Assembly: GCF_039545795.1 (NCBI RefSeq)
Contig: NZ_CP154260.1
Span: 6,205,001 to 6,269,000, forward strand
Reading direction: 5' to 3'
Origin: Chitinophaga niabensis
GTDB lineage: Bacteria > Bacteroidota > Bacteroidia > Chitinophagales > Chitinophagaceae
Length of the DNA: 64,000 nucleotides
Under the pieces are notes generated by a model that did no database searches, was not told the DNA's origin, and worked only from the letters and a program-made list of their open reading frames with translations. Shown here one piece after another: positions 1,650 to 34,694 of this stretch. The stretch's first letter is position 1, and each line of letters opens with the position of its first letter. The translations under genes and the position numbers were made by a program.

Positions 1650-3860
1650 GTGATGGCTGTTGCAAAGGTAAGTTTGTTGGATGCATTACACGAACATTTC
1701 GGATTTGATTCCTTTAAGGGTAACCAGGAGAAGATCATAAAAAATATACTTTCCGGAAAAGATACTTTCGTGATAATGCCAACGGGTGGCGGTAAGTCTT
1801 TATGCTACCAGCTGCCTGCATTGATGAGTCCAGGAGTGGCACTCATTGTAAGTCCGTTAATTGCTTTGATGAAGAATCAGGTGGACCTGATCCGTTCATA
1901 CAGCAGCAAGGATAACGTGGCGCATTTTCTCAACTCCACGCTCACCAAGGCGCAGATTAAAAAAGTGCGCTCGGATCTGACCAGCGGCAAAACCAAGATG
2001 CTGTATGTGGCACCGGAAACACTCACCAAGCAGGAAAATATAGACTTCTTCAAAGAGCTGGAAATATCATTCATTGCTGTTGATGAGGCACACTGTATCT
2101 CTGAATGGGGGCACGACTTCCGGCCAGAGTACCGCAGGTTGAGGGAAATGATTGAAATGATCAACCCTGAATTGCCCATTATTGCTTTAACAGCTACAGC
2201 CACCCCCAAGGTGCAGAGCGATATTGTGAAGAACCTGGAATTGCGTACACCGGAGATCTTTATTTCCTCCTTTAACCGCCCGAACCTTTATTATGAGATC
2301 CGCGCCAAGCGGAAAAAGGACCTGGTGATCAAGGATATCGTGAAGTTCATTCACCAGCATAAAGGCAAAAGCGGCATTATCTATACGCTGAACCGTAAAA
2401 CCACAGAAGAACTGGCAGATATGCTGGTGGCCAACGGCATCAAATCCGTAGCCTACCATGCCGGTCTGGATTCCACCACCCGTGCCGGGCGGCAGGATAT
2501 GTTCCTGCATGAGGATGTGGAAGTGATTGTTGCCACTATCGCCTTTGGCATGGGGATCGACAAACCGGATGTGCGTTTTGTGATCCACTACAATATTCCC
2601 AAAAGCCTGGAGAACTACTACCAGGAGACCGGCCGCAGTGGTCGTGATGGCCTTGAAGGGATCTGTCTCTGCTTCTATTCCTACAAGGATGTGCAGAAGC
2701 TGGAGCACCTGATGCGGGATAAACCACTTTCCGAAAGGGAAATGGGGGCACAGCTCATTAACGAAACCGTGGCTTATGCGGAAAGTTCCGTTTGCCGCCG
2801 TAAAGTGATCCTGCATTATTTCGGGGAGAAATACGAAGAGGAGAACTGCGGTAAATGTGATAACTGCCTTCATCCGAAAGAGAAGATAGAGGTAAAGAAC
2901 CGCGCATTTATCGTTTTAAAGGCCATACAGCAGCTTGAAGAACGTTTTGGCACCGACTACGTGGTGAACATCATTACGGGGCAAAGCAACCCCCAAATCA
3001 CCACTTTCCAGCACGATAAACTGGAGGTGTTCGGAGAAGGGAAGGAATTCGATGCGCATTTCTGGAATTCCCTGATCCGCCAGATGATGCTGGAGGGGTT
3101 GATCGAAAAAGACATTGAAGAATATGGCTTGTTGAAGATCACGGCCAAAGGAAATAAATTCATCAAAAAACCATTCTCCATCTGGTTCTCCCTGAACCAC
3201 CAGTTTGATGAAAGCGATGGGGGTGGAGAAGATGAAGATGGCGGTACCGGGGAAACACAGGCTTCTGCGGACCCTGTGCTGGTAGAGATGTTAAAGGAAC
3301 TGCGCAAGAAAGTGGCAAAGGAAAAGAACCTGCCTCCGTTTGTGATCTTCCTGGAAACATCCCTGGAAGATATGGCTACGCAATATCCCACCACAGTTCA
3401 GGAGTTGGAAAAGATCTCTGGCGTAAGTAAAGGGAAGGCCATCCGTTATGGTAAGAAGTTTGTGGATGTAATTGCGAAGTACGTGGAGGAGAATGACATT
3501 GTGAAACCGGATGACTTTGTGATGAAGAGCGTGGTGAACAAAAGCGGGCTGAAGGTATTCATCATTCAGAACATCGACAAAAAGATGCCGCTTGAAACCA
3601 TTGCGAAGAACAAGGAACTGACCATTCCCCAACTGCTGGATGAAATGGAAACGATTGTGGCCAGCGGTACCAAGCTGAACCTGGATTATTGTATCGATGA
3701 GGAGCTGGATGATTACGCGCAGGACGAGATCATTGAGTACTTTAAGGGCTGTGAGACTTCCAGTTTGCAGATTGCGAAAGAGGAGCTGACGGAAGGGAAT
3801 TATACGATTGAGCAGTTGAAGCTGGTGCGGATTAAGTTCCTTGTTGAGTATGGTAATTAA
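1650..3860 (+). CDS. recQ: ATP-dependent DNA helicase RecQ
   Basis: This 736-residue 3'-5' DNA helicase serves recombination and fork repair. Visible parts in order: Walker A with TGGGKS (about 45-50), DEAH box (145-148) followed by CISEWGHDFR, the second RecA lobe with a GRSGRDG arginine-finger motif, a zinc-binding RQC region with the cysteines of CGKCDNC, a winged helix, and an HRDC domain near 540-620. A C-terminal extension of about 100 residues with a helix-turn-helix look follows; it is common in Bacteroidota RecQ. Two adjacent ATGs (1650, 1653) could both serve as start. Transcribed alone, convergent to nothing nearby. Confidence 0.96.
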   Translation: MMAVAKVSLLDALHEHFGFDSFKGNQEKIIKNILSGKDTFVIMPTGGGKSLCYQLPALMSPGVALIVSPLIALMKNQVDLIRSYSSKDNVAHFLNSTLTKAQIKKVRSDLTSGKTKMLYVAPETLTKQENIDFFKELEISFIAVDEAHCISEWGHDFRPEYRRLREMIEMINPELPIIALTATATPKVQSDIVKNLELRTPEIFISSFNRPNLYYEIRAKRKKDLVIKDIVKFIHQHKGKSGIIYTLNRKTTEELADMLVANGIKSVAYHAGLDSTTRAGRQDMFLHEDVEVIVATIAFGMGIDKPDVRFVIHYNIPKSLENYYQETGRSGRDGLEGICLCFYSYKDVQKLEHLMRDKPLSEREMGAQLINETVAYAESSVCRRKVILHYFGEKYEEENCGKCDNCLHPKEKIEVKNRAFIVLKAIQQLEERFGTDYVVNIITGQSNPQITTFQHDKLEVFGEGKEFDAHFWNSLIRQMMLEGLIEKDIEEYGLLKITAKGNKFIKKPFSIWFSLNHQFDESDGGGEDEDGGTGETQASADPVLVEMLKELRKKVAKEKNLPPFVIFLETSLEDMATQYPTTVQELEKISGVSKGKAIRYGKKFVDVIAKYVEENDIVKPDDFVMKSVVNKSGLKVFIIQNIDKKMPLETIAKNKELTIPQLLDEMETIVASGTKLNLDYCIDEELDDYAQDEIIEYFKGCETSSLQIAKEELTEGNYTIEQLKLVRIKFLVEYGN

Positions 3861-21462: not shown

Positions 21463-22764
21463 ATGTCCACAAACCAGCTTCCCCGGAATGCTTCCACTGC
21501 CTGGCGATTAAAGGCAATTTTTACCGGCTCTATTGGCAACCTGGTTGAGTGGTATGATTGGTATGCCTATGCAGCCTTTGCCATTTACTTTGCGCCGGTA
21601 TTTTTTCCAGAGGGTAATTCCACTGTACAGTTATTGAATACTGCTGCCATCTTTGCTGTAGGTTTTCTCATGCGGCCCATTGGTGGCTGGTTATTTGGGA
21701 GTATTGCAGATAAACAGGGGAGGAAAGCATCCATGACCTTATCCGTGTTACTGATGTCTTTCGGTTCCATGATGATTGCCTTCACACCATCCTATGAATC
21801 CATTGGTATGGCTGCGCCCATACTTTTGTTGCTGGCAAGGCTTTTACAGGGATTGAGTGTGGGTGGTGAATATGGTACTTCTGCAACTTACCTGAGTGAA
21901 GTGGCCTCCTCAGACAGAAGGGGATTTTTTTCCAGCTTTCAATATGTGACTTTAATCGGCGGTCAGTTATTCGCATTGGGGATCCAGTTGTTGTTGCAGA
22001 AAGTTTTTCTCACGCCGGCTGAATTAAGTGAATGGGGGTGGCGTATTCCTTTTGTGATCGGTGCATTGCTGGCGCTGGTGGCTTTATACCTTCGCCGGAA
22101 TATGCATGAGTCTGTAGACCTGCATGATAAAAAGAAAGAACGCGGTTCCGTAATGGTGTTACTGAAGAAACATCCGCAAGCGGTGTTAACCGTAGTGGGA
22201 CTAACATTGGGCGGAACGATCGCGTTTTATACTTACACTACTTACATGCAAAAGTTCCTGGTGAATACGGTGAAGTTATCCAAGGAACATTCCACGATCA
22301 TTTCTTTTTCCCTGATGCTGATCTATGCCTGCTTGCAACCTGCATTCGGATGGCTGTCAGATAAAGTTGGTCGAAAACCTTTGCTGGTGGGGTTTGGCGT
22401 GTTGGGTACATTATTGACTGTTCCCATCCTTACTGCAGTGAGTGAAACTACTTCGGCCTGGAGTGCCTTCTTCCTCATACTGATGGCATTGTTAATTGTG
22501 AGCGGTTATACTTCTATTAATGCGGTGGTGAAAGCAGAATTATTTCCTGCGGAAGTGAGGGCTTTGGGTGTTGGTTTACCCTATGCATTAACGGTAGCCA
22601 TTTTTGGCGGAACGGCAGAATATCTTGCGCTTTATTTTAAGAACATCGGGCATGAGTCCTGGTACTACTGGTATGTAACGGCATGCATCTTTGTGTCGCT
22701 GTTAGTATATATTACTGCAAAGGACAGTCAGAAGAATTCCTACATGGATAAAGAACAATTATAA
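21463..22764 (+). CDS. MFS transporter, metabolite:H+ symporter (MHS) family
   Basis: 433 residues with 12 hydrophobic segments. The N-terminal IGNLVEWYDWYAYAAF, GFLMRPIGGWLFGSIADKQGRK and LLQGLSVGGEYG are hallmark motifs of the KgtP/ProP group, which imports 2-oxoglutarate, citrate, proline/betaine or related organic acids with protons. Inner membrane. The second half repeats the loop motif (GWLSDKVGRKP). The next gene starts 11 bases on, so it opens an operon of three membrane proteins. Confidence 0.93.
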   Translation: MSTNQLPRNASTAWRLKAIFTGSIGNLVEWYDWYAYAAFAIYFAPVFFPEGNSTVQLLNTAAIFAVGFLMRPIGGWLFGSIADKQGRKASMTLSVLLMSFGSMMIAFTPSYESIGMAAPILLLLARLLQGLSVGGEYGTSATYLSEVASSDRRGFFSSFQYVTLIGGQLFALGIQLLLQKVFLTPAELSEWGWRIPFVIGALLALVALYLRRNMHESVDLHDKKKERGSVMVLLKKHPQAVLTVVGLTLGGTIAFYTYTTYMQKFLVNTVKLSKEHSTIISFSLMLIYACLQPAFGWLSDKVGRKPLLVGFGVLGTLLTVPILTAVSETTSAWSAFFLILMALLIVSGYTSINAVVKAELFPAEVRALGVGLPYALTVAIFGGTAEYLALYFKNIGHESWYYWYVTACIFVSLLVYITAKDSQKNSYMDKEQL

Positions 22765-23737: not shown

Positions 23738-24280
23738 ATGTATTTATACATTAAAGCGCTTCATATCATTTTCATCGTTACCTGGTTCGCCGGGCTTTTT
23801 TACATTGTGCGATTATTTGTTTATCACACGGAAGCACAATCTGCTGAAGAACCCCGCCGCAGTATTTTACAGGAACAGTTTAAGATCATGATGAAGCGGT
23901 TGTGGTATGGGATCACCTGGCCATCTGCAGTGCTCACCCTGATCTTCGGACCCTGGATGGTTATTTTGCTGGGAGATATTCCCGGTTGGTTATGGGTAAA
24001 ACTTGTTTTTGTATTAGGCCTCTACATTTACCACTTTATACTACATGGGATCTTCAAAGGATTTTTAAAAGATCAGTTCCGTTATACTTCTACACAGTTA
24101 AGGGTATGGAACGAAGTAGCCACTATTTTTTTAGTGGCCATCGTTTTTCTTGTTGTGCTGAAAAGCTTGCTGAGCATGGTATGGGCACTGGTTGGGCTGG
24201 TTGCTTTCACCGGTGTGTTGCTCATTGCAATACGTTTGTATAAAAAGGCCCGTGAGGCCCGCGAGAAAAAATCTTCTTAA
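23738..24280 (+). CDS. hemJ: Protoporphyrinogen IX oxidase HemJ / CopD-like membrane protein
   Basis: 180 residues with four or five membrane helices. The N-terminus YIKALHIIFIVTWFAGLFYIVRLFVY carries the conserved His9 and Trp/Phe pattern of HemJ (UPF0093), which oxidises protoporphyrinogen IX to protoporphyrin IX during haem synthesis. The third helix region has WVKLVFVLGLYIYH. Some annotation pipelines name such proteins CopD. Last of the three-gene operon; it converges on the membrane-anchored sigma partner with a 4-base overlap. Confidence 0.8.
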   Translation: MYLYIKALHIIFIVTWFAGLFYIVRLFVYHTEAQSAEEPRRSILQEQFKIMMKRLWYGITWPSAVLTLIFGPWMVILLGDIPGWLWVKLVFVLGLYIYHFILHGIFKGFLKDQFRYTSTQLRVWNEVATIFLVAIVFLVVLKSLLSMVWALVGLVAFTGVLLIAIRLYKKAREAREKKSS

Positions 24281-25560
24281 TCTTTTTTACCTAAACTCAG
24301 TTGCAGAGATACGCCTGCAGAACTGAGTTTTACTTTTCCTTCTCCCACTCCGTTCAGCGGAACTTTCACATAGGGTTGTAATCCCCATTTCAATCTTCCT
24401 GATGTTTTTCTTTCGTACGTAACACCGAGGTTAAGTACGGAAAAATAATGTTGGTTTTGATTGCTGAATTCGCGGGTGCGTTTGGTATTGTTTGCCCAAT
24501 AATAATCATACTTTTCTTTCAGCATGAAATATGAGGATGCTCCGGCCATAGCACTCCAGCTGCTCTTCGGACGATCGAGGAATGTATAGTTTACATTCAA
24601 AGGAACATCCAGCACATTACAATCCGCATCGATCTTTACATAGTTGGTGGGGTAGGTGAATTGATAATCTTTGGGCGTGGCGCCGTATACTTTTTTTGCG
24701 TACACTGCGGCTACACTCAGGCTGAGGCGGTTATTCACATGATAGCGCAAAAATAATCCGCCGTTGAAACCAATTTTTCCCATTGTGAAAGAAGGGGCGA
24801 TATTATAATCAGGGCCGAGGGTAATACCACCATCGAATCCGGATTTCTTCTTTTTAGCTTTTTTCGTATAGTTATTGACGGTAGTATCTGTGTGTATGTT
24901 AATTACCGGTGAGTTATTCACATTGGCCGGTATGGAAGTTTTTTGCAGTTGGTTAAATGGTATTGGTTGAATGTCGTAACGCAGTGGGGTTGATTCTTCG
25001 GGTGCGATTGTTGATTCTTTGGTTATTGCTTCGTTGGTGGATGTTTGTGTTTGTTCCTTTGATGGGTGTGTTGTTTTTTTATTGGACGCGAAATTGGGCA
25101 CGGTAGTTTTTTCTGAAGATGATGCGTTTGTTGTTTTTTCTGATAGCGATGTATTTGGTGTTTTTTCTGTTGGTATTATAGTTGCTTTTTCTGAAGGCGT
25201 TGCTTCGTTGGTGTGGCTTAGTTTTTCTGATAACGGTGTTGCCTCATTTTTTTCAGAAGAAGGTGATGTTACTTTATCAGTTCCGGTAACAGCCGGTGTA
25301 TGCACATTATTTCCCCCTGCGATATTCTCAATCGGCACTTTTTGCAACGCGGTGGACTGGTCTTGCTGGGCATACCACCACCAGCCGCCTCCGCCAAGCA
25401 GAAGAAGCAGGAGGAGCCCGGAAGTCCACCACCAAAAAACGGGACGGCGCTTATCCGAATCGTCCAGCCGCTTTTTCATATCATCCCAAGCGGCGGGATC
25501 GAAGGGGATATCTACCTCCTCCAGTTTTTTACGAATGCTATTTTCAAATTGTTCACTCAT
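24277..25560 (-). CDS. Single-pass protein: cytoplasmic N-end, Ser/Thr-Glu-Lys linker, beta-barrel-like C-terminus
   Basis: 427 residues. The first 40 are charged and cytoplasmic-looking (FDPAAWDDMKKRLDD), the place where anti-sigma factors bind. One membrane segment follows (41-63). Residues 70-190 are low-complexity with repeated SEKTT/SEK-type units. The C-terminal 190 residues look like an outer-membrane porin-type domain (GGITLGPDYN, GGLFLRYHVNNRLSLSVAAVY, ending VSLQLSLGKKD). Its start overlaps the ECF sigma stop (ATGA), so the two are translationally coupled and it is probably that sigma factor's partner. The protein could link inner and outer membranes. Confidence 0.75.
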   Translation of the reverse strand: MSEQFENSIRKKLEEVDIPFDPAAWDDMKKRLDDSDKRRPVFWWWTSGLLLLLLLGGGGWWWYAQQDQSTALQKVPIENIAGGNNVHTPAVTGTDKVTSPSSEKNEATPLSEKLSHTNEATPSEKATIIPTEKTPNTSLSEKTTNASSSEKTTVPNFASNKKTTHPSKEQTQTSTNEAITKESTIAPEESTPLRYDIQPIPFNQLQKTSIPANVNNSPVINIHTDTTVNNYTKKAKKKKSGFDGGITLGPDYNIAPSFTMGKIGFNGGLFLRYHVNNRLSLSVAAVYAKKVYGATPKDYQFTYPTNYVKIDADCNVLDVPLNVNYTFLDRPKSSWSAMAGASSYFMLKEKYDYYWANNTKRTREFSNQNQHYFSVLNLGVTYERKTSGRLKWGLQPYVKVPLNGVGEGKVKLSSAGVSLQLSLGKKD

Positions 25561-26518: not shown

Positions 26519-28387
26519 TTATCTGCCCATGAAAACCATGAGAATTTGTACATCGCTTGGATTGACTCCGCTGATCCGGCTCGCTTGTCCTAAAGTGCGC
26601 GGTTTGATGCGGGTGAATTTTTGCCTTGCTTCGTTGGAAAGTGAAACGAGTTTTGTGTAATCGAAAGAATCAGGGATGATCAGATCTTCCAGTTCACTCA
26701 TCCTTTTTACCAGTTCATTTTCTTTTTCGATATAGGTATCGTACTTCACCTGGATTTCTACCTGCTCCAAAACTTCTCTGCTGAATCCGGCGAGTGCATT
26801 TCCTACTTTTCCGATCTGCTCTTTCATAGACATAATATCCAATCCGGGGCGCAATAATATCTGATGTGCTCTTTGTTTTTCCTTCAATGGGGAAGAACCA
26901 TTTTCCTGTAACCAGGCATTCATTTCTTCCGGTTCGAGTGCTAATTCCTTCAGGATGGTTTTTACCTTGTCAACTCCGGAAAGTTTTTCCCTGGTTTTTT
27001 GCATCCTTTCTTCTGTAGCAAGGCCTAATTTATAGCTCTTTTCAGTGAGGCGGAGGTCTGCATTATCCTGGCGGAGCAGTGTTCTGAATTCCGCCCGGGA
27101 GGTGAACATGCGGTAAGGTTCGTCTGTTCCCTTGTTGATCAGGTCGTCAATTAACACGCCGATGTAGGCTTCGCTGCGTTTGAGTACCAATGGTTCGAGG
27201 TCTTTTGCTTTCTGATGAGCATTGATCCCGGCCATTAATCCCTGGCAGGCAGCTTCTTCATAACCCGTTGTTCCATTGATCTGACCGGCAAAAAAGAGGT
27301 TGGATACCTGTTTTGTTTCCAGTGAAAACTGTAACTGGGTAGGTGGGAAGAAGTCGTATTCGATGGCATAGCCCGGGCGGAAGATCCTTACATTTTCAAA
27401 ACCGGGTACTAATTGCAGTGCTTTCAGCTGCACTTCTTCCGGTAAAGAGGTGGAAAATCCGTTCACATAGATCTCTACTGTGTTAAAACCTTCCGGTTCT
27501 ACGAACAATTGATGGCGTTCTCTTTCTGCGAAACGGTTGATCTTATCTTCAATGCTAGGGCAATATCTTGGTCCTGTTCCCTGAATTCTTCCCTGGAACA
27601 TGGGTGATCTGTCGAAACCGGTGCGGAGGATATCATGTACCTGTTCACTTGTGTAGGTGATCCAGCAGCTTCTTTGTTGGGAAGGTTTGATCTTTTCCAC
27701 ATCCATATAAGAGAATCCAACGATCTCCTCATCTCCTTTTTGTTCTTCCATTTTGGAATAATCCAGGCTGCGGCCATCCACACGGGGAGGGGTTCCTGTT
27801 TTGAGACGGTCACTTTCAAAACCCAAGGAAACCAATTGTTCTGTGATTCCGGTGGCTGCTTTTTCTGCTACCCTTCCTCCGCCGAACTGTTTATCGCCGA
27901 TATGGATAACACCATTGAGGAAAGTACCGTTGGTAAGTACAACAGATTTTGCCTGGATTTCATGTCCGAGGCCGGTTATTACACCATGGCAAACACCATT
28001 TTTAATAAGTAATCCTTTCACCATATCCTGGTAAAAGTCTACGTTGGGGGTATTTTCTAATGCTTCTCTCCATTTTGCAGCGAAGAGCATGCGGTCGTTT
28101 TGTGTTCTTGGGCTCCACATGGCTGGGCCTTTGCTCCGGTTCAGCATCCTGAACTGGATCATGGATTGGTCTGTGACGATGCCGGAGTATCCACCGAGGG
28201 CATCTATTTCGCGTACAATTTGTCCTTTAGCGATACCACCCATGGCAGGGTTGCAACTCATTTGGGCGATTGTTTGCATATTCATGGTTACGAGCAACAC
28301 ACGGGAGCCCATGTTGGCTGCAGCAGCTGCAGCTTCACATCCGGCATGTCCGGCACCGACAACAATAACATCGTAAGAAGGGAACAT
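26519..28387 (-). CDS. mnmG: tRNA uridine-5-carboxymethylaminomethyl(34) synthesis protein MnmG (GidA)
   Basis: 622 residues. The FAD enzyme works with MnmE to modify U34 in the wobble position of several tRNAs. The FAD-binding GAGHAGCEAA starts at residue 11; CNPAMGGIAKG, TGTFLNG, GTGPRYCPSIEDK and TGYEEAACQGLMAG are family signatures, and the C-terminal helical domain ends with SGVNPSDVQILMV. In many bacteria this gene lies near the replication origin, which fits the parS sites and DnaA boxes seen a few kilobases to its right. Transcription points away from that origin. Confidence 0.97.
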   Translation of the reverse strand: MFPSYDVIVVGAGHAGCEAAAAAANMGSRVLLVTMNMQTIAQMSCNPAMGGIAKGQIVREIDALGGYSGIVTDQSMIQFRMLNRSKGPAMWSPRTQNDRMLFAAKWREALENTPNVDFYQDMVKGLLIKNGVCHGVITGLGHEIQAKSVVLTNGTFLNGVIHIGDKQFGGGRVAEKAATGITEQLVSLGFESDRLKTGTPPRVDGRSLDYSKMEEQKGDEEIVGFSYMDVEKIKPSQQRSCWITYTSEQVHDILRTGFDRSPMFQGRIQGTGPRYCPSIEDKINRFAERERHQLFVEPEGFNTVEIYVNGFSTSLPEEVQLKALQLVPGFENVRIFRPGYAIEYDFFPPTQLQFSLETKQVSNLFFAGQINGTTGYEEAACQGLMAGINAHQKAKDLEPLVLKRSEAYIGVLIDDLINKGTDEPYRMFTSRAEFRTLLRQDNADLRLTEKSYKLGLATEERMQKTREKLSGVDKVKTILKELALEPEEMNAWLQENGSSPLKEKQRAHQILLRPGLDIMSMKEQIGKVGNALAGFSREVLEQVEIQVKYDTYIEKENELVKRMSELEDLIIPDSFDYTKLVSLSNEARQKFTRIKPRTLGQASRISGVNPSDVQILMVFMGR

Positions 28388-28835
28388 TATGAAAATTTTG
28401 AGAGTGCAAAGTTAAGTATAAAGATTGATGGGAGGGGCTTAAAACAATCTGTTTATCAGGGGGTGTTGTTTTTTCCAGGGGAATTTAGGAGGAGGTATTG
28501 CTGAGGGTGGTGTATTTGGGTGAGTATGTTTTTGCATGTGGGTGTTTTGGAGGGAGGGGTTATAGTTTTTACTGAATTGTTTTGTTTTTCTGAGGGAGCC
28601 TTTTCAGGAAAGATGGAAAGGGTTAGGGTAGTTTTCACTCGAATTGGCTTGGTGAAAAGTAGCTTTTTAGAAGAGGGAGTATGCTCAATAGTTTCCTTTC
28701 TGGGGGAATTATTCGAGAAAGAGGGATACAGGTATTGCGGAGAGTTCTGTAAAAGGAGTTTAGAAGGTGATACTATGACTGGTTCGATGGTGCTATTATC
28801 TATATTTTGATTATAGAAGCAAGGTGTTTTTAGAG

Positions 28836-28924
28836 TTAGAAAGGGATTGTTTAAAGGAGGAAGTAAAATAAAACTGATCCTTTACACAGCGGATTCATTT
28901 AGGGAAAGCCGTTTTTGGCTAAAA
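28836..28924. repeat. Degenerate origin-region repeat, copy 1
   Basis: 89-base unit from TTAGAAAGGGATTGTTT to TTTTTGGCTAAAA. It aligns to copy 2 along its whole length with about 22 differences and two single-base indels, roughly 75% identity by eye. Confidence 0.7.
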
Positions 28925-28974
28925 AAATAGGCTAAGCAAATATGAGAAGGAGGTTTTTTTCACAGAAAGAGGAA

Positions 28975-29063
28975 TTAGAAAGAGATCGTTTGAGGGAAGA
29001 AGTAATTGAATTTGGTTCTTTATACAGTGAATCTATTTAAGAAATGCCGCTTTTTGGCTAAAA
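28975..29063. repeat. Degenerate origin-region repeat, copy 2
   Basis: 89-base unit from TTAGAAAGAGATCGTTT to TTTTTGGCTAAAA, starting 139 bases after copy 1. Shared blocks include CTTTAYACAG, ATTTA and GCCG-TTTTTGGCTAAAA. Confidence 0.7.
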
Positions 29064-29214
29064 AGAAGGTTAGTTAGGTATGCGGAACGCTGTTTATGAA
29101 AGGACATAAGGGATCTTTTTACATGGGGTTTGGTATTAGAGGAAGGGCTTTTACATAGAACCGGAGATAAACAATGCCTTTTGTGAATGCTTTGAGAATT
29201 CCAGAAGCTGATTT

Positions 29215-29299
29215 TTAGAAAGGATTGTATGAAATAAACCTGCGTCCTTAAGGTTCTTGAGGACAGATCTATTTAAGCAATTCTTCTTTCTGCGGAAAA
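29215..29299. repeat. Degenerate origin-region repeat, copy 3
   Basis: More diverged copy starting TTAGAAAGGATTGTATGAAA, with GGACAGATCTATTTAAG in the middle and GCGGAAAA at the end, 240 bases after copy 2. Confidence 0.5.
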
Positions 29300-29448
29300 T
29301 GGGAGGATAAAGGATGAGGTGGGTAGATACATGGGAAGGTGTTTTGAGAAAAAAAAGTAGTAAGCCTGATTTTCTCCAAAGATTGATATTGATTAAGGAG
29401 CATTCTTTCTTTAAACGGGTAAACGAGAAAGATCTTTTAGGGGGAAGT

Positions 29449-29560
29449 TTAGAAGAGATGGAGGATGAATTACGGGAAAGACAGTATTAAGGAAGTACCT
29501 CTTTAGGGCTCTTTGTAGTGGATTCATTTAAAAAGAACATTTTTCTTTTTGGAATGGCAT
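29449..29560. repeat. Degenerate origin-region repeat, copy 4
   Basis: Starts TTTAGAAGAGATGGAGG, contains CTCTTTGTAGTGGATTCATTTAA (first 20 bases comparable to copy 1) and ends TTTCTTTTTGGAATGGCA, 234 bases after copy 3. Longer than the others through an insertion. Confidence 0.5.
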
Positions 29561-30072
29561 AGAAAAAAGGAGGAATAGGTAGGGAACCCGGAGGTGTTTT
29601 TTGATATAGACGAAGAAGGGAAAACTTGATTTTCTATAAGATTGGAGGATAAAGTAGTCATTTCCCCTTTCTAAGAGGTGGGAGAAGGGTAGGTTTCAAG
29701 GAAGATCAGGGTATCTGGAGCGAAAACTATTAGAAGGAAGAGGGTATATAAAGCCGTTTTTCCTTAGAGATTTTGTTCGTTCAAGTGTGTCTTAGATAGA
29801 AGGGAATAGGGGACAGGCTTTTTTTTGGTATTTAATGGTATTGCCCTAGGGGTTACTAAGGATAAAGTAAAAACAAGCTGGCCTCTTTTCAGGCGAATTA
29901 GTGAAGAAAGCTTCTTTTATAAGAAAAGGGTAAATGGGAGGTATGTTTTTAAGTAGGATTTAAAAGCATTGTGAAGAAATCATGGTTAGGAGAGGTAGAT
30001 GGAAGTTGTTTTGAATAAAGCTAATCCCTCACCAAGAGAAAAATATCCCTATTTTCATTATGCTAAGGCAGA

Positions 30073-30088
30073 TGTTCCACGTGGAACA
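30073..30088. promoter_or_regulatory. parS centromere site 1
   Basis: TGTTCCACGTGGAACA, a perfect 16-base palindrome differing from the general ParB-binding consensus TGTTTCACGTGAAACA only by a symmetric pair of changes. First of three sites within 770 bases. Confidence 0.88.
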
Positions 30089-30786
30089 TCTATAAAAATG
30101 AGTACTTCATGTGGATTCCCCTCTACTTAAGACGATTTCAGCGGTAAATGGGCACAGAGAAAAATTCCAAATGGGAAAAACCTAAGTCTATAATAGCTCA
30201 TCCAAGATCAGGTAGACCTTCTAAAGCCAGTTTTCCTCACAGAAATACTAAAGAATCAACAAATAAAGAGGAAATTAATCAAGAATGAAGGGAACCGGTA
30301 CACAAATAATGGAAAGCTTGGGGGATTTTGTATCAAAAGGACTCCAAAGAACTATTAAAGGATTAGTAATCTAAAAAGGAAGGAATTTAATCATTTTAGT
30401 AGCAGCATTAATACACACGTAAGGGAAGTTGAAACCATATTTTTTCTACTAAGGAGGGTAGAAGAATCATTAAACCAGGGAAAAGAGAATCGTTAAAATA
30501 GAAAGAAAGCAATGATTCAAGATGTATTTGTGTGTCTTCTATAGAAAACGGAGAATTAAGGAACATTTTTTTCAATTATAGTTTTAAAAAGACTTCTACA
30601 ACAGGGATCCTTAGAGAAGGGAGCGCAGAAAATACCTTTCAGAAACATCAGTATAAAGCTCAAAAATGATCCTAATTTTATTAAAACAATCATAAACAAA
30701 ACCAGCAAGTAAGCTAAAAAGGATTTCTCGACCTGGCTGATAAACCTCTGAAGGAACATCCAAACAACCACTTTCTTAACAGCAGA

Positions 30787-30802
30787 TGTTCCACGTGAAA
30801 CA
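30787..30802. promoter_or_regulatory. parS centromere site 2
   Basis: TGTTCCACGTGAAACA matches the ParB consensus at 15 of 16 positions. It is 714 bases from site 1 and 37 bases (start to start) from site 3. Confidence 0.9.
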
Positions 30803-30816
30803 TTTGTAGTAAATAA

Positions 30817-30846
30817 AAAGGGATGTTCCACGTGGAACATCCCTTT
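30817..30846. promoter_or_regulatory. parS centromere site 3 inside a 30-bp palindrome, also a hairpin after ybeY
   Basis: TGTTCCACGTGGAACA at 30824-30839 is the core of a perfect 30-base palindrome extended by AAAGGGA/TCCCTTT. On the minus strand the arm is followed by TTTTTATTTA, so the transcript of ybeY (stop at 30845) would form a terminator-like hairpin from the same bases. Confidence 0.88.
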
Positions 30847-31270
30847 ACTTTTCGAAGTATAAATTAAGATACTCATCTTCTTTCTCTCTCATAAGTGCTT
30901 CTTCCTTCTTTGTCTTATCCTTATATCCGCACAAATGTAAAGCCCCATGAAAAATAACCCGGTGCAACTCGTAGTTTTCCGTTACTTCAAAGTTCGCCGC
31001 GTTCTCTTTAACTCTGTCAATGCTGATATATATTTCGCCTTCCGTTACCTCTGGGTCATCGGATAATTCAAAGGTGACTATATCTGTGTAAGTATCATGC
31101 TGCAAAAACTCCTCGTTTAACTGCAAGAGATATTCATCTGTACAGAAAACATACTGTAGATGTTTCAATCCCTGTTCCTCTCTCCTGAATAAATCCTCGA
31201 TAAAAGCTTTGAGCCTGGTCCGGTCTTTCATCCCTACCTTGACCTCATGCGCTGAAAATTGTACTGCCAT
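30845..31270 (-). CDS. ybeY: Endoribonuclease YbeY (16S rRNA maturation)
   Basis: 141 residues. The metal-binding motif FHGALHLCGYKD (about 106-117) is the YbeY zinc site; the third histidine of the usual HGxLHLxGYxH is replaced by Asp/Lys, as I recall for other Bacteroidota YbeY proteins. DEYLLQLNEEFLQHDTYTDIVTF is also diagnostic. It processes 16S rRNA 3' ends and takes part in ribosome quality control. Its stop codon lies in the parS-3 palindrome, and it is transcribed away from the proposed oriC. Confidence 0.94.
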   Translation of the reverse strand: MAVQFSAHEVKVGMKDRTRLKAFIEDLFRREEQGLKHLQYVFCTDEYLLQLNEEFLQHDTYTDIVTFELSDDPEVTEGEIYISIDRVKENAANFEVTENYELHRVIFHGALHLCGYKDKTKKEEALMREKEDEYLNLYFEK

Positions 31271-33940: not shown

Positions 33941-34694
33941 AACTATAGATTAATTTTTCTTTTTAAAAAGAAGAGAAAACCCACTACTATTAGGGGTGTG
34001 AATATGGGGGAAACTCAGCTCCTTACCCTGATACAAATGTACTTGTTATTATTATTTCAGTGACTATCCACAGCAAATTAACATTGCTTTTTCCTATCAA
34101 TGCTGAGTTTGGCATGCTTTATCCACAGTGTTAACAGGGAATCAACTGAACAACTTTTTTGGGCTGTGGGTATTAAGAAATTGTTAAAAGAGCAAGGTTA
34201 TCCACCGCCTGAGGTTTGAAAATTATCCGCCGAAGAAAAACAAATTTAGTTTTACCTCCTTCTCAAGGGGTGTTTACCCACAGAAAACAGCGTTAACCCC
34301 ATGGTTATTCACAACAACTGTGAACAAACTGACCCGCTTTTCTGAAATTCCAGCGGCCGAAAAATTTTTCTGTTTTCTTTAAATCAATCCACATTTTCTT
34401 GTGGATTATATCGGGCATATGCTTATTTTGTGGATAACCACGTGTTTATTCTACCGGGGGCCAAACCCGGAAATAGCCAAATGGCGGGCCTTTAACAAGA
34501 TTTATAACAACCAATACCTATCTCTTAATTTCGGGCAAAATGTGGATAAAGTGTGCATGAAGATAGAAATCCACCCCCTTTCCGTACCGCTCAAACCCTT
34601 TGCTGTATTGACTTTCGGGGTTAAAAAACCTATTTTGCAGTTACAACTATTTTATTCTATTTTTGCTTCCTCTAAAATTTAGACTATATAATAT
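33941..34694. other. Proposed chromosomal replication origin (oriC)
   Basis: 754 gene-free bases. Exact matches to the DnaA box TTATNCACA lie at 34119 (+), 34305 (+), 34429 (-) and 34541 (-). One-mismatch boxes lie at 34064 (+), 34198 (+), 34274 (+), 34319 (-) and 34400 (-); weaker ones at 34165, 34223 and 34385. AT-rich tracts (34330-34385 and 34600-34690) could unwind. The flanking genes diverge (nadA left, ppiD right), mnmG and ybeY also point away, and parS sites lie 3-4 kb off. Origin status is inferred from this pattern; GC-skew has not been computed. Confidence 0.85.
34634..34665 (+). promoter_or_regulatory. Promoter of the ppiD-like gene
   Basis: TTTG at 34634-34637 and TATTTTTG at 34658-34665, 20 bases apart, fit the Bacteroidota TTTG/TAnnTTTG promoter. 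The leader would be about 20-25 bases. It sits at the right edge of the proposed oriC. Confidence 0.6.

Follow-up and report, generated by a model that had tools for sequence, protein, structure and literature searches.

The parS cluster beside the putative replication origin of Chitinophaga niabensis is separated from the gene mnmG by a gene-free stretch of DNA with an extreme excess of G over C on the plus strand. The window analysed is a stretch of 64,000 nucleotides, positions 6,205,001-6,269,000 of a 7.2 Mb genome in one contig; coordinates up to 64,000 refer to the window and larger ones to the genome. On balance, we favour the reading that 28463-30072 is an unconstrained, fast-evolving spacer, prone to repeats, which separates the parS cluster from the mnmG promoter, with the skew as a lineage-specific by-product. 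The G-rich stretch is probably not a conserved element, because related species have replaced, shrunk or nearly lost it. The conserved working parts of the region would be a 74-bp promoter block and the parS sites, and the spacer would grow and shrink by local head-to-tail duplication followed by decay. Copies lying in the same direction would pass on the composition of a G-rich unit. We infer that duplication and mutation bias, and not selection, made the skew and that the spacer is without function.

Organization of the locus

The gap between the start of mnmG (28388) and the stop of ybeY (30844) spans 2457 bp and contains no credible gene (Table 1). The first-pass annotation of this sequence had described a gene-free region of about 1.6 kb; the absence of genes was confirmed, while the real gap is longer than stated. 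Its placing of the stretch beside the centromere was correct, as three parS sites lie in the same gap, and its description of the genome as compact is not apt at 7.2 Mb. The closest named match of mnmG was from Chitinophaga cymbidii (92%), in a comparison from which the genome's own record is possibly absent. The 74-bp block is probably the mnmG promoter, judged by the promoter motif TAnnTTTG. The 30-bp palindrome that overlaps the ybeY stop might also serve as a transcription terminator. Some close relatives, among them G056 and G021 (G numbers denote the genomes of the genus compared), likewise carry an extended palindrome where ybeY ends.

Table 1. Position and strand of the features found in and around the mnmG-ybeY interval of the window.
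Feature	Position	Strand	Evidence or remark
mnmG (gidA), left border	26519..28387	-	name from the first-pass annotation; fourfold sites G-rich on plus strand, +0.49
74-bp conserved block 5' of mnmG	28388..28461	-	identical in sister G056; probably mnmG promoter; minus strand reads ...TAACTTTGCA
G-rich, C-poor spacer, gene-free, with decayed same-direction repeats	28463..30072	+	no clear alignment to sister species
Decayed repeat copy 1 (model seed)	28827..28960	+	self-comparison, profile
Decayed repeat copy 2 (model seed), 139-140 bp past copy 1	28967..29099	+	self-comparison, profile
Decayed repeat copy 3	29216..29309	+	nhmmer E 0.012
Decayed repeat copy 4, weak	29489..29583	+	nhmmer E 0.2
Decayed repeat copy 5, weak	29858..29933	+	nhmmer E 0.089
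parS1 TGTTCCACGTGGAACA, just past right end of skewed stretch	30073..30088	.	exact motif
Second spacer, A-rich, GC skew +0.06	30089..30786	.	no clear alignment to sister G056
parS2 TGTTCCACGTGAAACA	30787..30802	.	exact motif
30-bp perfect palindrome with parS3 (30824-30839), overlapping ybeY stop	30817..30846	.	
ybeY, right border	30845..31270	-	
oriC-like intergenic region between nadA and SurA-type gene	33941..34694	.	8 DnaA-type boxes (at most 1 mismatch) in 480 bp; likewise in G056 and G021

The sites at 30073, 30787 and 30824 are the only exact TGTTNCACGTGNAACA sites in the genome, which has one match above cut-off to the ParB family TIGR00180, at 4,382,072. The DnaA-box cluster, a putative origin by sequence, is situated 3-4 kb to the right of the parS cluster. 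Judged from these motifs, the cluster of parS sites next to oriC is a ParABS centromere of the ordinary kind. It resembles other chromosomal ParABS centromeres in its exact 16-bp parS palindromes, its distance of less than 5 kb from an oriC-like region and the single ParB-family gene. Unlike in the usual ParABS centromere, the Chitinophaga sites are dispersed over a long interval, in which the filler DNA has been replaced from one sister species to the other. Clusters of parS together with GC skew have served to place the origins of gut bacteria, in a study that found no known condensin homolog in its two Bacteroidetes (PMC10197239); PMC11316580 belongs to the related literature. Among the listed results of literature searches on parS in Chitinophaga or Bacteroidetes, on tandem repeats and on spacers (15 of 316 and 10 of 475 results for the two widest), none described such replaced spacers.

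Searches for genes, RNAs and mobile elements

The longest ORF wholly within 28388-30072 encodes 96 aa. The first-pass annotation had named a diverged gene, detectable by profile search, as the finding that would speak against its proposal. Pfam searches with 10 ORF pieces gave nothing above cut-off (no match for nine and a chance-level match, E 0.47, for the tenth), and a diverged gene was rejected. At gathering score, Rfam detected no family in the interval and none in the loci of 10 relatives scanned, while at E<1 it gave four miRNA or snoRNA matches far below threshold, of which three fall on the parS2-parS3 palindromes and the fourth at 30619-30673. Folding of 28463-29400 was slightly better than that of shuffled sequences on both strands (z -1.7 and -1.8, 20 shuffles each), and a structured RNA was rejected as well. 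Mobile or multicopy DNA was rejected because the stretch matched only its own locus in its own genome and gave weak matches of 24-54 bp in 5 of 78 other genomes of the genus. The idea that the stretch is what remains of a gene, a mobile element or a structured RNA is hardly credible: the slight gain in folding speaks for it, and against it stand the Pfam and Rfam searches, the scarcity of matches outside the locus and the single direction shared by the detected repeat copies.

Composition and skew of the stretch

The plus strand of 28388-30072 is composed of G 0.28, C 0.10, A 0.31 and T 0.31, with a GC skew of +0.48. The count of 28 G and 2 C in 28501-28560 given in the first-pass annotation was exact by recount, and the extreme bias that it reported was found to be beyond chance in a sliding-window scan of a 584-kb sample of this genome (1600-bp windows in 100-bp steps, 5408 in all; mean 0.011, sd 0.070). 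The spacer reached the highest value (0.50), the next separate place 0.29, and no window outside the spacer 0.40 or above. At 60 bases, 56 of 582,380 overlapping windows were equally extreme (|G-C| at least 26), including the 28501-28560 spot itself. Within the minus-strand outer-membrane-type gene at 24277-25560, 25000-25299 showed a GC skew of +0.43 and an AT skew of -0.54, probably as a biased protein segment.

The skew peaks adjoining mnmG, where the first two 100-bp bins have +0.60 and +0.86; the most skewed 100 bp is 28488-28587 (+0.86). The best G-C change point is at 30020, 53 nt before parS1, and beyond parS1 the strand is A-rich (AT skew +0.25). The first parS as a border of the skew fits the window (53-60 nt) and G003 (25), and fails in G056 (880 bp) and G021 (272 bp). 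As the change points of the last two are far from parS, no such rule is claimed.

The interval in the genus Chitinophaga

Among 79 genomes of the genus, 78 had an mnmG match (all except G006), and 77 intervals including that of the window were examined, G084 being left out for its position near a contig end. The order mnmG-parS-ybeY is kept in 77 of 77, with 1-5 parS each. A parS site is situated within 100 bp of mnmG in 64 and within 100 bp of ybeY in 67 of the 77, both being the case in 56. The association of parS with mnmG is judged from sequence to be old. Mostly in other Bacteroidota (76 loci, L065-L140, with mnmG less than 80% identical), exact parS was present within 3 kb upstream of mnmG in 41 and within 130 bp in 38, in a set where contig ends shorten some loci and to which four MAGs labelled C. 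pinensis belong.

The length and composition of the interval are not kept. Its length, set from protein matches and accurate to a few bp, ranges from 142 to 4395 bp with a median of 1722; six intervals are shorter than 200 bp and 51 of 77 are at least 1 kb. An ATG-started ORF of at least 100 aa is present in 15 of 77, so not every interval is strictly gene-free. The 87 segments of at least 300 bp have a mean skew of -0.07, a median of -0.08 and an sd of 0.16. A segment skew above +0.3 is found in five genomes only, namely the window (+0.48), G003 (+0.45), G090 (+0.38), G056 (+0.37) and G021 (+0.32), followed by G041 (+0.15). The first-pass annotation had suggested that the stretch is maintained for a purpose and had named intervals of normal size and composition in close relatives as the finding that would tell against it; the lengths, the six very short intervals and the mean skew largely agree with that finding. 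In the comparison of the mnmG-ybeY interval which it had proposed, here run in the genus, neither size nor skew is conserved, yet G056, G021 and G003 keep both gap and skew despite replaced sequence. A common origin of the G-rich spacers was rejected: in a tree built from 43 mnmG genes, one clade unites the window with G056 and G021, yet G003 groups with G042 (G090 was left out of the tree).

A strand-oriented element under selection, such as a translocase guide, a condensin loader or a ParB lane, would conserve composition and not sequence. The strong plus skew kept in G056, G021 and G003 though the stretch barely aligns, and the +0.38 of G090 elsewhere in the genus, are consistent with it. 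We regard it as quite improbable in view of the lengths down to 142 bp and the slightly negative skew of the 87 segments. Its motif content argues in the same direction. The E. coli KOPS motif is GGGNAGGG, and none of its 11 matches in the window falls within the stretch, by which an array of KOPS-type oriented motifs was rejected. Among words of 6-8 bases, none shows strong enrichment in each of the four G-rich spacers, and those common to all four total 4-6 copies; none was convincing as a shared oriented word.

Speed of sequence change

The mnmG DNA of the sister G056 is 93.9% identical to that of the window. Between the two, the 74 bp adjoining mnmG are identical and parS1-3 are kept, with nothing clearly alignable in between, and the left segment of G056 is 550 bp shorter (1135 bp against 1685 bp). 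The other intergenic regions of this pair are 86-100% identical in 20 of 24 cases, the rest having identities of 0.71, 0.72, 0.75 and 0.76. The strongly plus-skewed segments measure 1135 bp in G056, 1016 bp in G021 and 698 bp in G003, and the stretch of the window gave only short BLAST matches to G021 and G003, mainly adjoining mnmG and at parS.

In G049/G079 the spacer is colinear and 72% identical, a divergence of 0.28 against 0.19 at fourfold sites. The spacer and fourfold divergences are 0.27 and 0.205 in G019/G018, 0.33 and 0.16 in G024/G080, 0.05 and 0.015 in G014/G074, 0.14 and 0.13 in G014/G068, and 0.42 and 0.27 in G061/G085. The spacer thus diverges at least as much as fourfold sites, as expected of neutral DNA, in six pairs, which are not independent since G014 is present in two, and poor alignment inflates the larger values. 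In G014/G074 the 950-bp ybeY-nadA gap diverges more than the parS spacer (0.07). The divergence fits an absence of constraint, perhaps with some extra change; a raised mutation rate is not claimed.

Repeats in the spacers

TRF reported no array in the window. Self-alignment of 28463-30072 scored far above 25 dinucleotide shuffles (z of mean score 12.5), and self-comparison lags of 139, 240 and 255 exceeded all of 12 shuffles. The decayed unit is about 130-140 bp and runs in one direction: a profile built from the two best copies found three more weak copies, all on the plus strand and in the G-rich part, and one match in G056 (E 0.0027), also left of parS1. The z of self-alignment was 1.0 for the second, A-rich spacer, 0.4 for G021, 1.2 for G003, 3.1 (weak) for G056 and 6.7 (strong) for G090.

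In the genus, 15 of 77 spacers carry TRF arrays with a period of at least 60, and all 15 are among the 59 spacers that are at least 700 bp long. The 18 non-overlapping arrays have periods of 68-314 bp and 1.9-5.9 copies, and make up 7.1% of the spacer bases against 0.19% in 1.815 Mb of other DNA from the genus. Array units are common only to close relatives (G024/G080; G061/G063/G085) and none contains parS. Against ordinary intergenic DNA, TRF counted 18 arrays in 130 kb of spacer and 1 in 45 kb. In an unmatched test, matches exceeded their own shuffles in 30 of 59 spacers and in 8 of 40 genomic 2-kb pieces; with length-matched self-alignment, repeats were detected in 17 of 59 spacers and 5 of 35 ordinary intergenic regions, which is not significant (p 0.13). 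The repeats are real and frequent in the spacers, and as their excess over intergenic DNA is weak they may be merely what unconstrained DNA accumulates.

Several observations weigh against a repeat-made, by-product skew. The most skewed 100 bp lies outside the detected copies in a window without TRF array, the matched excess is not significant, and G021 and G003 share the skew without detectable repeats. Moreover, the skew is kept through replacement of the sequence in G056, G021 and G003, which requires an ongoing force.

Strand bias around the origin

In the sampled pieces of the genome, negative skew extends from about 2.3 to 6.12 Mb and the remaining pieces have positive skew, apart from single 10-kb steps that stray. 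The cumulative skew is lowest near 6.125 Mb, at some 114 kb to the left of the DnaA-box cluster. Plus-strand fourfold skew is -0.05 to -0.25 in 10 of 11 20-kb pieces of 5.90-6.125 Mb (+0.02 in the eleventh) and +0.13 to +0.20 over the following 110 kb or so (6.125-6.233 Mb, with window 1-28387 at its right end), where both gene strands are positive. It is +0.49 in mnmG, -0.06 in ybeY, and -0.31 and -0.37 in the next two genes. Right of oriC it is +0.13 over 34695-64000, near zero at 6.27-6.32 and 6.40-6.44 Mb, and +0.12 to +0.21 between these. The first-pass annotation had expected the plus strand left of oriC to be G-poor and had concluded that replication skew cannot explain the stretch. The premise fails for this genome, as fourfold sites are G-rich there for about 110 kb on both gene strands; the domain is still much weaker than the spacer, so that it may account for the sign of the skew but not for its magnitude. 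The spacer shares a G excess on one strand with replication-linked GC skew (for example PMC2099444), and differs from it in being local and much stronger, with a sign that is reversed for about 110 kb left of oriC.

In the favoured reading, strand-biased mutation of the same sign as at the neighbouring neutral sites of mnmG and of the 110 kb leftward would add to the skew. This part meets opposing evidence: noncoding DNA elsewhere in the 110-kb domain shows almost no skew (-0.02 to +0.05), and the skew of the left arm is no predictor of that of the spacer (rho 0.22, p 0.30, n=25 of 30 chosen genomes). In G056 and G021, whose chromosomes are colinear with that of the window there, the left-arm fourfold skew is plus over some 100-120 kb from mnmG leftward. 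It is near zero in G003 (four pieces), has the expected minus sign in G014, G074 and G068 (about -0.27) and in G019/G018 (-0.15, -0.12), and is -0.07 to -0.01 in G049, G079, G024, G080, G061 and G085. The fourfold skew of mnmG itself does correlate with that of the spacer (22 of these 30 genomes, rho 0.61, p 0.003, kinship ignored), the exceptions being G041, G066 and G064, in which mnmG has +0.33 to +0.50 and the whole spacers -0.01 to -0.17.

An altered direction of replication would make the spacer the unconstrained end of a domain of about 110 kb which is replicated rightwards or was inverted temporarily and then restored. The plus fourfold skew of the window genome, G056 and G021 over colinear chromosomes and the displaced cumulative minimum are in line with it. 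However, the only DnaA-box cluster in 6.005-6.289 Mb is that at the usual oriC, the hexapeptide gene and nadA retain minus skew, G043 combines a left-arm skew of +0.13 with a spacer of -0.13, and the spacer skew is far above that of the domain; we give this reading little probability. A large standing inversion was rejected. The genes follow a colinear order in G056, G021 and the parts of G003 covered, and in each of the 29 genomes, out of the 30 chosen, where a single contig holds both genes, the gene at window 1650-3860 is found to the left of mnmG with its orientation unchanged (in 8 of the 30, the gene at 21463-22764 and mnmG are on different contigs). A second origin was rejected on the single DnaA-box cluster in 6.005-6.289 Mb, and among ten genes tested at 6.104-6.134 Mb, dnaN included, there was no replication initiator. 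Two DnaA-type boxes 22 bp apart are situated at 6104861-6104883 beside an lpxD-like gene, and pairs with the same spacing occur in the scanned stretches of G056 and G021. The dnaN gene is at 6132733-6133890 (L270:7733-8890), about 99 kb left of mnmG. In the 30 genomes it lies to the left in the same orientation in 15, to the left and flipped in one (G015), right of oriC in 12 and on another contig in two, differences which are attributed to rearrangements around the origin.

Transcription as a possible source of the skew

Because the skew peaks adjoining mnmG, transcription is the main rival explanation. A rightward noncoding transcript from the mnmG promoter region, through R-loops or an exposed nontemplate strand, would render the plus strand G-rich up to the parS/ParB border. 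The two steep first bins, with T above A in the second, and the fading of the skew just before parS1 fit such a process. The fourfold skew of mnmG is strongest in the 5' third of the gene (+0.77, n=43 here), as in 7 of 8 genomes tested, and bidirectional promoters are reported to be common in bacteria (PMC10268837, PMC12825309). We nevertheless consider it unlikely. The mean plus skew is lost after the first 100 bp in 53 other intervals of the genus of at least 800 bp, by which a transcription-made gradient was rejected as a genus-wide feature. A equals T over the whole stretch, against the T excess expected from C-to-T change alone. No strict TTTG-N17-22-TAnnTTTG match is present in 28388-30060 on either strand, and in G056 and G021 a long distance separates the change point from parS.

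Implications for bacterial centromeres

ParB is known to spread from parS. As a guess, the exclusion of genes by spreading ParB could explain the long gaps. A wider reading, which we hold to be rather doubtful, is that Chitinophaga has a satellite-like centromere: ParB/parS would bar genes from a zone of 1-3 kb by oriC, which would be filled by tandem repeats outpacing silent sites, in parallel to the centromeric satellites of eukaryotes, and in the clade of the window this would go along with a reversal of the replication-type strand bias which covers about 110 kb to the left of oriC and has its end in the spacer. Eukaryotic centromeric satellite DNA consists of fast-changing, lineage-specific head-to-tail repeats. 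The repeats of the Chitinophaga spacers are likewise fast-changing, lineage-specific and head-to-tail, with periods of 68-314 bp, and lie beside centromere sites. Unlike eukaryotic satellites they have few copies, TRF arrays are found in a minority of spacers and the copies in the window are decayed; moreover, the Chitinophaga centromere is set by the parS sequence.

The usual picture of a bacterial centromere is that of short, fixed sites. In Chitinophaga the parS sites persist, while relatives differ by replacement, duplication or near loss of the intervening DNA, so that the genus offers a natural experiment on the demands which ParB, condensin and fork passage make on the DNA around the sites. 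An extreme skew beside an origin need not mark a functional element, and skew alone would put this origin at a distance of more than 100 kb from the cluster of DnaA boxes. Between ybeY and nadA in G079, another gap close to oriC was found to be strongly skewed, with the opposite sign (1341 bp, GC skew -0.44, left half -0.58).
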